This document shows positions 53,632 through 57,313 of a stretch of DNA of 64,000 nt, in pieces (within the stretch, counting starts at the first letter, position 1; every line of letters starts with the position of its first letter). The stretch is taken from NCBI GenBank assembly GCA_938023035.1, contig CALIDI010000013.1:62001-126000 (forward strand). The letters run 5' to 3'. This stretch comes from an uncultured Leptolyngbyaceae cyanobacterium. GTDB taxonomy: Bacteria > Cyanobacteriota > Cyanobacteriia > Leptolyngbyales > Leptolyngbyaceae. The notes beneath the pieces were generated by a model. It worked only from the letters and a program-made list of their open reading frames with translations, was not told the DNA's origin and did no database searches. Position numbers and translations under genes: made by a program.

Positions 53632-54429
53632 TCAGGACGTAGCTTCGCCGGATTTCTCCTCCTCCTCTTCAAACCAGTCTTCAGCATCTACTTCGGGTTC
53701 TTCTACAAAGTTAGAAGGGCTAGGAGGCGGGGGGGGAGGTGGTTCCAGCGGTTGAATCGGTGGATCAATCAGACGATATTCCGCATCGATCACTGGTTTA
53801 CCAATAGCAGGTTCCCGTCGATGGACTTCATCTCGGTTTGATTCTCGGTATTGATAGGAATAGATTGAGCCAGAGCGATCCACTTTTTTGGGGGCTTGGG
53901 ATGACTCAAACGCTCTAACATCTGATAAGTCATCATCAGACTCTGGCACAGGTGCCGTCGATTTTTCCGGTATCGGTTCCCAGTCATCGGTGGCAGGAGA
54001 TTCCCAGTCATCTATCGGTTTGGCCACCGGAGTTGCTTCTGGGCGAATTGTCTTTTTGGTCGTAACCGTAGGGGCACCGCCCCAGGCTGGTGCCGAGTCT
54101 TGAATTTTGGTGGTTTCTGGCTGACGCTCTGTGCTGCCGCTAGAGCTTGGCCGGCTCGGGTTAGCTGAGGCTTCACCACGAAAAGCTTGCTTGCGGGCAA
54201 AGCGTCGTACCTTCCGAGCTGCCACGTAGCTGCTCAGTTGTACAAGTAAATGAATGACTCCGTAGGTAAGGGCACCCGCCGCGATCGCCCCCAACACCCA
54301 AACCGCCAGAGGCAGAGCTGGTGTTGAAAGGCCCCAAAAATTGAGTGCTACTACCAGTGCCCAGTTAGAGTAGGCAAAAACTAGCAGGACGCTGGCAATA
54401 CCGAGCAGTAGCAACAGACGAAACAGCAT
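53632..54429 (-). CDS. LapA-like membrane protein with long disordered tail
   Basis: Two N-terminal membrane helices (about 2-20 and 36-62) in the arrangement of LapA/DUF1049 proteins (FAYSNWALVVALNFWG between them), then a basic stretch (RKVRRFARKQAF), and about 180 residues of low-complexity acidic/Pro/Ser-rich sequence (IDPPIQPLEPPPPPPP near the end). 265 residues; ATG at 54429. Function unknown. A shorter LapA-like gene lies 1.3 kb upstream on the same strand, with scpA between. Confidence 0.7.
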   Translation of the reverse strand: MLFRLLLLLGIASVLLVFAYSNWALVVALNFWGLSTPALPLAVWVLGAIAAGALTYGVIHLLVQLSSYVAARKVRRFARKQAFRGEASANPSRPSSSGSTERQPETTKIQDSAPAWGGAPTVTTKKTIRPEATPVAKPIDDWESPATDDWEPIPEKSTAPVPESDDDLSDVRAFESSQAPKKVDRSGSIYSYQYRESNRDEVHRREPAIGKPVIDAEYRLIDPPIQPLEPPPPPPPSPSNFVEEPEVDAEDWFEEEEEKSGEATS

Positions 54430-54618: not shown

Positions 54619-55491
54619 CTAGTCAACGGCTACCTGTTCAACCCAATCGGCCATTTGGGTGACGGTTGCGGGTTCTATGAGGCGAATTTTTAAGTCCTGG
54701 TAAAAGGTTTCTTGTTCTAATTCCACCTTAGATTGGGCCGAAAGTAGTAATAACGCCCAAAAAACGCCCACCCGATCATGACGGCTAGCTGCCATTTCAG
54801 CCGCTTCCTGATCATGGGAGTGGATTTCACTCGTGCGAAAGGCTTTGATACCGGTCCACAATTCCAACAGCAAATCAAAATCTAGCCACTGCTGCCCCTC
54901 GGTGATACGTGTCCAGTGGTGGTTAAGGAAATCGGCCAAAGCCTCGGCCAATTCAGATAGGTTTTCTTGGTGAGCCAGTTGGGCGATCGCCCGAATAGCC
55001 TGCTGCCGCGATTGAGGTCGAGCACGACGTGACCGCTGATTGCGGGGAATACCTTCTTCTAGGGCCGTGGCAATGGTTTGAAGCTGGTCGATCAGCTCCT
55101 TTAAAGTAACCCGTCGTCGCTGGGGGGGACGGGCAACAGCCCGACGTTGCAGTCGGCGTTCTAAAAAAGGGGGCAAGCCAACGGTTTCGGCAACCTCGCT
55201 CTCGATTAAATCAGCAGTTTCCTCTAAAGTTTCTGCGGGATGGTCTGTTTGGGTCAGACTTTCTGCCTTGAGCAACAGCAACATTGAGCCGTATAGAAAG
55301 GCCTGCCCAGATTGGGACAGGTTCGCCTCATAGGGTTCGCTCGAGTTTTCAAAGGGGTTTAGCTCACTGAGAAACCGATCAATCACATCGACGACTTTGA
55401 CATCCCAGGGGTCAATCTCACCCCGTTCGGCCATTTCAATCAACAGGGCGATCGCATCTTGAGCAAGTGTAGCGGGCGTTGAATCAGCCAC
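54619..55491 (-). CDS. scpA: segregation and condensation protein A
   Basis: Kleisin subunit bridging the SMC heads. The N-terminal kleisin helix region DAIALLIEMAERGEIDPWDV with VVDVIDRFLSEL (about 12-44) is diagnostic; the middle is charged and variable (RRRVTLKELIDQLQTIA); and the C-terminal winged-helix region includes RHDRVGVFWALLLLSAQSKVELEQE (about 240-264). 290 residues. GTG start at 55491, abutting the stop of a 42-residue membrane ORF. Its partner smc ends about 3.8 kb to the left on the other strand; scpB is not in the window. Confidence 0.93.
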   Translation of the reverse strand: MADSTPATLAQDAIALLIEMAERGEIDPWDVKVVDVIDRFLSELNPFENSSEPYEANLSQSGQAFLYGSMLLLLKAESLTQTDHPAETLEETADLIESEVAETVGLPPFLERRLQRRAVARPPQRRRVTLKELIDQLQTIATALEEGIPRNQRSRRARPQSRQQAIRAIAQLAHQENLSELAEALADFLNHHWTRITEGQQWLDFDLLLELWTGIKAFRTSEIHSHDQEAAEMAASRHDRVGVFWALLLLSAQSKVELEQETFYQDLKIRLIEPATVTQMADWVEQVAVD

Positions 55492-55620
55492 TTAGCGAGA
55501 AGCTAGCCTTATAAAGTAAATAGCAGACGCCCCGATAATGCCCAATAAAACCAGCGGTACCCAGAGACTCCACAAACTTGAGGGGGTAAAAAAATCAGAT
55601 AACGCGACTGCTGATATCAT
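55492..55620 (-). CDS. small single-pass membrane protein, 42 aa
   Basis: ATG at 55620 to TAA at 55492-55494, ending exactly one base before the scpA GTG. The protein has a polar N-terminus (MISAVALSDFFTPSSLW) and one strong membrane helix (VPLVLLGIIGASAIYFI) with a basic end (RLASR), so N-out/C-in topology is likely. I do not recognise it among the small PSI, PSII, b6f or NDH subunits. The tight junction suggests a leader gene whose translation is coupled to scpA. Too short for many gene callers. Confidence 0.55.
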   Translation of the reverse strand: MISAVALSDFFTPSSLWSLWVPLVLLGIIGASAIYFIRLASR

Positions 55621-55733
55621 AGACTCTGGCAAAAGAGCACTGAGAAAGCATTCCTCTAGCTACCATACCTTGTATGCTAGCCCAAGCTGGATAGAATGCG
55701 CCAGAAGTGTTTCTGGCGCTGCCAATAGCGCAC

Positions 55734-56099
55734 CTACTGAACAAATGCCTCAGTGGATTCTGTTTCCTGAGTGTTGACCGAGGCCGCTGGCAATAGGCGT
55801 TGTTGTTCCTGAATTTCTGCCTTGTAGCGCGCTAGATCCTCTTCTAATTCTTGAATTCGGGTATCACGGGTGCGCAGCTCTTTATTGGTTTCAATCATCC
55901 GTTGCAACTGAGACCAAACGCTAAAAACCCAGGCCAATACAGCTCCGATTCCCATTGCCAGAATTAACTCAATCGACAGCGGCGCTTGAAACTGAACTCC
56001 TTCGACAAACTGTACAGACGCTGGCTGGGTGTTCTCAATGCCAAACAGCATTAGAGCAAGACAGATGACAAAAATGATGAGGAAATTAATTTGACGCAT
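55734..56099 (-). CDS. LapA family protein (DUF1049)
   Basis: 121-residue protein with two membrane helices (INFLIIFVICLALMLFGI, about 3-20, and IELILAMGIGAVLAWVFSVW, about 43-62) separated by the LapA-type ENTQPASVQFVEGVQFQAPL loop, then a coiled coil (about 63-105) with a Glu-rich end. In other bacteria LapA/B regulate LPS synthesis; in cyanobacteria the role is not established. ATG at 56099. Confidence 0.88.
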   Translation of the reverse strand: MRQINFLIIFVICLALMLFGIENTQPASVQFVEGVQFQAPLSIELILAMGIGAVLAWVFSVWSQLQRMIETNKELRTRDTRIQELEEDLARYKAEIQEQQRLLPAASVNTQETESTEAFVQ

Positions 56100-56227: not shown

Positions 56228-57313
56228 CTATTCCTGAATGGATTCTTCAGGAAACTCTTCCTTGGAATGCCGTTGGTTAGGGTTAAGGTGATAAACCGCA
56301 TCAATGGTGCTTTTGATTGTGCCAGCAATGGGGACTGCAACGATAATGCCGAGAAACCCGGCAATTTGCAAACCCGCTAAAAGGGCGACGAAAATCCAGA
56401 TGGGGTTGAGGCCAGTGAAATTGCCCATCATGCGCGGAGCCAGGATATTGTCTCGCACCTGTTGTAACAGTACAGCAACGATCGCGATTTCAATCGCCAA
56501 CCCGATGTTTTGTAGGGCTAAGAGCAGACACACCAGCCCAATTCCCAGGCTGGCACCCACTAGGGGGATCAGCTCAGCTAGCCCAATCACTAAAGCAAAC
56601 AACACCGCGAAGGGAACGTTGCGTACTAAAAAGTAGGGCAACAGCACCAAAAACATAAGAACTGCTAATAGAATCTGGCAGATAAAAAACTTATGGAAAT
56701 TCAGCCGCAAAGACTCACTCAGGGGTACCCCAATGCGTGCCGGAATCAGGTTGACTAGCCCGTACCAGAGGCGATCGCCATAGAGCAACATGTAAAAGGT
56801 CAGCACCAATACCAGAATCGTATTGATCAACCCTGAAAGGGTTGCTACCGCCAGACTGAGGGTTTGTTTGAGCAGAGCTTCTAATTGGGTTTCCAGCTGA
56901 GTAACCAGGCGATCGCCCAAATCTCGAATATTGATAGGGAAATTGCGCTCAATTGCCCAACGTTCCCAAGCTCGGAAATTGGCTTGACTGGCTGCTAGCC
57001 AATCAGGAATGCGTCCAAGCAGTTGGTTGGTTTGCTCCACTAAAAGGGGAACAAATAGCACTAACGATACCACCAGAACAGCAGAAGTGATTGCCAGCAC
57101 GACCGTGGCTGCTTGAATACGGCTAAGTCGTGCTCGTTGAAACGCCTGCACCGGATAATTCAATAAAAAGGCCAGCATTGCTGCAATCGCAAACAAGCTG
57201 ATCATTGGCTCAAAGTAGCGATACACCTGGCTGAGCAACCACACATTCAGTGCTACAATCGGGCCACTTAGCCCTAAAATCAGCAGCCTCTGGAAGTTGG
57301 TCGAAAGATTCAT
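56228..57313 (-). CDS. AI-2E family transporter (PerM-like)
   Basis: Eight-helix membrane protein of 361 residues from the AI-2E/PerM family. Hallmarks: an N-terminal hydrophobic hairpin, a long periplasmic segment between helices 3 and 4 (about 90-155), the LVLTFYMLLYGDRLWYGLVNLIP segment (split around 170-190), and the C-terminal PRMMGNFTGLNPIWIFVALLAGLQIAGFLG pattern. Named after a proposed autoinducer-2 exporter; members include ion antiporters, so the substrate is open. ATG at 57313; it follows the DUF3153 gene by 6 bp. Confidence 0.9.
   Translation of the reverse strand: MNLSTNFQRLLILGLSGPIVALNVWLLSQVYRYFEPMISLFAIAAMLAFLLNYPVQAFQRARLSRIQAATVVLAITSAVLVVSLVLFVPLLVEQTNQLLGRIPDWLAASQANFRAWERWAIERNFPINIRDLGDRLVTQLETQLEALLKQTLSLAVATLSGLINTILVLVLTFYMLLYGDRLWYGLVNLIPARIGVPLSESLRLNFHKFFICQILLAVLMFLVLLPYFLVRNVPFAVLFALVIGLAELIPLVGASLGIGLVCLLLALQNIGLAIEIAIVAVLLQQVRDNILAPRMMGNFTGLNPIWIFVALLAGLQIAGFLGIIVAVPIAGTIKSTIDAVYHLNPNQRHSKEEFPEESIQE

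Follow-up and report, generated by a model that had tools for sequence, protein, structure and literature searches.

A conserved family of predicted single-helix membrane proteins of Cyanobacteriia that includes a short gene next to scpA

Does a reading frame of 42 codons that ends exactly where scpA begins encode a membrane partner of the condensin kleisin, or does it belong with another protein? The question is raised by the window, the whole stretch of 64,000 nucleotides from an uncultured Leptolyngbyaceae cyanobacterium that was analysed here. The initial annotation had noticed an ATG-to-TAA frame at 55492-55620, without stating its strand, and had read the tight junction with the GTG of scpA as a sign of coupled translation and of a link to the kleisin. 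The frame is present on the minus strand, with its ATG at 55620 and its TAA at 55494-55492, and its 42 codons would give the protein MISAVALSDFFTPSSLWSLWVPLVLLGIIGASAIYFIRLASR. An in-frame TTG at 55632 is an alternative start, which would lengthen the product to 46 aa. The GTG occupies 55491-55489, with 0 bases between the TAA and this start; the tight junction is thus borne out, the stop and the start abutting.

The short gene and its surroundings in the window

Downstream of the small gene lies scpA (54619-55491, minus strand), which encodes segregation and condensation protein A (PF02616, 95.8 bits) and starts with GTG. The nearest named ScpA is that of Leptolyngbyaceae cyanobacterium M33_DOE_097, with 78% identity. 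The upstream neighbour is lapA, a gene for a LapA-domain protein (55734-56099, minus strand; PF06305, 60.5 bits), and the second upstream neighbour is a gene for an AI-2E/PerM family transporter (56228-57313, minus strand; PF01594, 222 bits). The gene downstream of scpA (53632-54429, minus strand) encodes a 265-aa protein with a long charged tail and a second, weak LapA match (PF06305, 19.6 bits, below the cut-off of 28). A gene of this type was not detected adjoining scpA in the other loci compared for synteny.

The Shine-Dalgarno signals are no better than chance at either start, 44% of random 20-mers being equally strong at the small ATG and 40% at the scpA GTG. On this account coupled translation of the small gene and scpA may occur in the window. 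A signal scan of the window found neither a promoter nor a terminator in the interval from lapA to the small gene, and both signals were therefore rejected there. The interval holds a G+C-rich hairpin with a perfect 9-bp stem and a loop of 4 (55698-55719, minus strand); it is without a T-run, and the scan does not call it a terminator. The folding of the stretch between lapA and the small gene is only 1.56 sd below that of shuffled sequences.

A conserved family with two gene contexts

ScpA is present in 56 of the 58 genomes searched, the window's own and its relatives. Among the 54 loci with upstream DNA, an iterated profile detected the short frame ahead of scpA and in its orientation in 36, and the frame also occurs in 35 of 80 named ScpA loci, a set (the best 80 of 155) that overlaps the 54. 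Over pairs with 0.05<dS<1.5, which are not independent of one another, the median dN/dS is 0.30 in class A (480 pairs) and 0.24 in class B (211 pairs), the two classes being defined below. In class A and class B pairs, differences at the third codon position are about twice as frequent as those at the second. This pattern of substitution indicates that the small gene is under purifying selection, with codon changes that are mostly synonymous. A chance frame is ruled out by the conservation at 36 of 54 scpA loci together with the median dN/dS of 0.30. The initial annotation had proposed a look upstream of scpA in relatives and had feared loss of the frame or non-synonymous drift; the frame is present in part of both sets of loci, and the dN/dS medians run against drift.

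No family in Pfam-A or NCBIfam matched the window protein above its curated cut-off, and 36 family members gave chance-level matches only in the same libraries. A sequence search of solved structures likewise stayed at chance level, the best match being a light-harvesting gamma chain (E 0.03 over 14 residues), with PsaX at E 1.5. An identity with a known family was rejected on these grounds. The initial annotation was right that a small membrane protein gene beside scpA had been overlooked: it is genuine and conserved, and it is absent from the annotation libraries searched.

The distribution was followed in 290 Cyanobacteriia genomes with completeness of 90% or more, using profile A1, built from the scpA-adjacent (class A) members only, and profile A2, built from both classes. 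A1 matches in 111 of the 290 genomes and A2 in 112, counts in which misses are possible because the profile searches start with a loose first look. The gene is single copy in 111 of the 112. Class A, defined by scpA within the fetched stretch, comprises 66 genomes, the window's included, in which the small gene lies directly upstream of scpA and in the same orientation; in the other 46 of the 112 genomes, class B, it lies away from scpA. No genome among the 112 has both classes. A1 also detects class B members where a genome has no class A, with a best E of 6e-12 and one member per genome with one exception. A sample of the whole phylum gave matches in 32 of 194 genomes, 31 of them Cyanobacteriia and the other at E 2.5e-4.

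In all, 117 small-gene loci were examined, 70 of class A and 47 of class B, from the 112 genomes, the less complete G002, G010, G027 and G030, and the second copy of G193. The members have about 27-42 residues and share the core VP-x-x-LL-x-x-I-x-x-AA-x-x-F followed by a basic end. The core aligns gap-free in 115 of the 117 loci, and P, L, L, I, A, A, F and the following R are nearly fixed; the case for homology between the two classes is built on some 22 residues of membrane helix. On this sequence evidence the members form a family of predicted single-helix membrane proteins of Cyanobacteriia, hitherto undescribed, and the 42-aa product of 55492-55620 (minus strand) is a real member of class A.

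All 70 class A loci (11 families) have the small gene upstream of scpA and on its strand. We found lapA upstream in 52 of the 70; where it was not detected (18 loci), the small gene nonetheless keeps its place ahead of scpA. In G046, of class B, LapA and scpA genes adjoin each other and no small gene intervenes. The gap from the small gene to the estimated scpA start ranges between a small overlap and some 105 bases; measured to the scpA match itself it reaches 126. It is roughly 8-120 bases in most relatives, and at one named locus 289 bases separate the small gene from the scpA match. The zero-base junction of the window is atypical, and strict coupling is not a conserved trait. Of the coupling proposed initially, the zero gap in the window stands and its generality does not, since relatives mostly have the wider gaps. 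The proposed kleisin link fares similarly: the position upstream of scpA is constant in class A, whereas 46 of the 112 genomes encode the small gene elsewhere. With 66 genomes linked and 46 not, linkage across the family does not mark the small protein as an SMC/ScpA component, and a condensin link is not supported as the family's function; scpA is one of two lineage-specific contexts.

ScpA itself is found in 275 of the 290 genomes, as against 112 for the small gene, and G100, with no scpA found, still has a weak small-gene member. As a separate observation, a ScpA match is absent from all seven f16 genomes and from the single sampled f15 genome, which are rated 96-99% complete, an apparent loss of the kleisin.

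A conserved helix face and a candidate partner

Single-sequence AlphaFold2 predicts one long helix over residues 13-40 of the window protein, with a mean pLDDT of 92.5, and the C-terminal end carries two Arg. This agrees with the single membrane helix and basic C-terminus described initially. Conservation along the helix is periodic, peaking at 100 degrees per residue (P 0.0001, 105 distinct cores), a signal to which the alignment of the cores on the invariant P adds slightly. The periodicity is seen in each class (P 0.0001 for class A and 0.0026 for class B), and the conserved positions agree between the classes (Spearman 0.76, P 0.0007). One conserved helix face argues for a specific integral membrane partner in both classes, and the helix most probably packs against such a partner. 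Since ScpA is a soluble protein, packing of a conserved membrane-helix face against it is not expected. Nearly all of 14 members tabulated are acidic on the N-terminal side of the helix and basic on the other; two of the 14 rows had been split at a later IP, and for these the sequence itself is the guide. According to the positive-inside rule, the basic end of a membrane helix faces the cytoplasm, so the C-terminus would lie inside and the N-terminus in the lumen or otherwise on the non-cytoplasmic side.

Which membrane protein could this partner be? At 37 of the 47 class B loci, a gene for a protein of about 850 residues lies head-to-head with the small gene. We coin the name CAF for this protein, which combines cyclic-nucleotide-binding, NtrC-type AAA+ and NapH-like 4Fe-4S membrane parts; by the same test the other 10 loci are not beside CAF. 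The Pfam domains of CAF above cut-off are cyclic-nucleotide-binding, sigma-54-activator AAA+ with its lid, and Fer4_5 (35.9 bits), and its residues 472-652 match TIGR02163 at 49.4 bits, far below the cut-off of 213. The likeness to the ferredoxin-type membrane proteins NapH and MauN extends to this match and Fer4_5 only; CAF differs from them in its added cyclic-nucleotide-binding and AAA+ domains. To our knowledge sigma-54 is absent from cyanobacteria, and the AAA+ domain of CAF should therefore have another role. The CAF gene of the window's genome lies at G000:C22:44344-46854 (L185; 58% identity), and a further example is L176:1192-3732. G193 alone carries the small gene twice; it likewise has two copies of the CAF gene, and each small gene faces one of them head-to-head. 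The neighbour differs in the two f31 genomes found, where a gene that we take to be pipX-like runs divergently from the small gene. The small gene is beside CAF at none of the three CAF loci of the window's genome and two other class A genomes. In another class B genome, G146, a gene for a protein that looks PerM/AI-2E-like by eye adjoins the small gene (L149:245-1384); in the window the PerM/AI-2E gene is two genes away from it.

CAF occurs in 199 of the 290 Cyanobacteriia genomes at E 1e-60 or better, the window's own included. The small gene and CAF are found together in 110 genomes, the small gene alone in 2, CAF alone in 89 and neither in 89. The two genomes with the small gene only, G017 and G278, are drafts of hundreds of contigs and show no CAF even at 1e-5. 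The control, the orange carotenoid protein (OCP) domain PF09150, is present in 238 of the 290 genomes and likewise in 110 of the 112 small-gene genomes, so the raw overlap alone is not telling. When CAF labels were shuffled within families, 12.0 genomes with the small gene only were expected against the 2 seen, and none of 20,000 shuffles reached 2 or fewer; the same shuffle for the OCP control gave 2 against 3.7 expected (P 0.04). Only this within-family test separates CAF from the control. With the families that hold class B left out, 2 were seen against 5.6 expected (P 0.00125), and the persisting deficit points to a tie between the small gene and CAF also where the genes are not neighbours. 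These correlations were computed within families and not on a resolved tree, so that shared ancestry is not fully removed from them, and correlated gaps or joint gene loss in patchy draft assemblies would push the same way. A diverged small gene beside CAF in the CAF-only genomes was considered and rejected: 20 stretches from the 89 such genomes held no short hydrophobic frame there. With 89 CAF genomes lacking a detected small gene and these stretches empty, CAF does not appear to need the small protein.

Weighing the explanations

What, then, does the small protein do? We rank an accessory membrane helix with CAF as the leading partner first, with chances that we put at about even; other membrane complexes come second and a kleisin tether third. 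It is quite unlikely that the peptide is a membrane adaptor for the kleisin, produced in constant proportion to ScpA through coupled translation and anchoring ScpA/SMC to the membrane. Such an adaptor would account for the place upstream of scpA at every one of the 70 class A loci (11 families), for the 18 of 70 loci where the small gene stays with scpA and lapA is undetected, and for the weak Shine-Dalgarno signals at the ATG and the GTG (44% and 40% of random 20-mers), which fit coupling. It does not account for the 46 of 112 genomes that encode the small protein away from scpA, for G100 or for a conserved helix face that calls for a membrane partner, and ScpA, found in 275 of 290 genomes as against 112, manages without the small protein. 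At a spacing of about 0-120 bases, moreover, rearrangements that split the pair would damage the scpA 5' region, and closeness could itself maintain the linkage. Were the act of translating the short frame, and not its product, to control scpA translation, the zero-base stop-start junction and the weak Shine-Dalgarno signals of the window would follow; the conserved amino-acid sequence (dN/dS about 0.3), the varying gap and the occurrence of the same protein away from scpA make such a translated leader highly improbable.

The size, charge pattern and helix face would equally fit one of the 3-5 kDa single-helix subunits that serve thylakoid complexes of photosynthesis or respiration (PSI, PSII, b6f or NDH-1), one not specially linked to either scpA or CAF, and the family is nearly confined to Cyanobacteriia (31 of 32 positives in the phylum sample of 194). 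Core subunits of such complexes, however, are not missing as this protein is, which was not found in 178 of 290 genomes, and the solved chains matched at chance level only (PsaX E 1.5, light-harvesting gamma chain E 0.03); we consider a subunit of this kind rather unlikely. Classes A and B might also be unrelated helices, alike by membrane composition, with class A alone relevant to the window, for the shared stretch is about 22 residues of hydrophobic helix. This is very unlikely given that the gene is single copy, that the classes never co-occur in one of the 112 genomes, that the class-A-only profile finds class B at E down to 6e-12, that the two classes agree in their conserved positions, and that the phylum sample holds just one match from beyond Cyanobacteriia, a weak one.

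The preferred explanation, to which we give not quite even chances, is that the small protein serves a membrane protein, CAF being the likeliest, as an accessory helix, and that in certain lineages the small gene travels with scpA. The helix would stabilise or tune CAF, its candidate partner, and the location at scpA would be a lineage-specific arrangement, perhaps co-transcribed with scpA, and not part of the SMC complex. A more specific version is doubtful: the microprotein would be an accessory helix of a nucleotide-sensing, AAA+ and NapH-like iron-sulphur electron-transfer protein, and in some lineages the unit with scpA would tie expression of this redox regulator to chromosome segregation.

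CydX and KdpF are small single-helix accessory subunits that stabilise or tune their complexes. The family resembles them in having tens of residues, one helix and a short gene beside or near that of the partner; it differs in that it matches no described family, its partner is a candidate and its gene has two contexts. We know of no membrane subunit like the small protein in the ScpA/ScpB/SMC complex, to which the likeness is that of a gene neighbour in class A only, the family being found also away from scpA. In a limited test of an open library, no paper described the small protein or CAF by title or abstract. SliP4 of Synechocystis, with 37 aa, is a small cyanobacterial protein linked to membrane complexes (PMC12850537). 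The family may be compared with it in this respect; the member of the f31 genome G093 has 30 aa.

The locus carries the lesson that a tight stop-start junction can mislead, and that a neighbour in one lineage need not be a functional partner. The small family is a conserved, single-copy addition to cyanobacterial genomes with a concrete candidate partner. If the link to CAF is true, it would open the study of an odd membrane protein that roughly two in three of the Cyanobacteriia genomes sampled encode (199 of 290).
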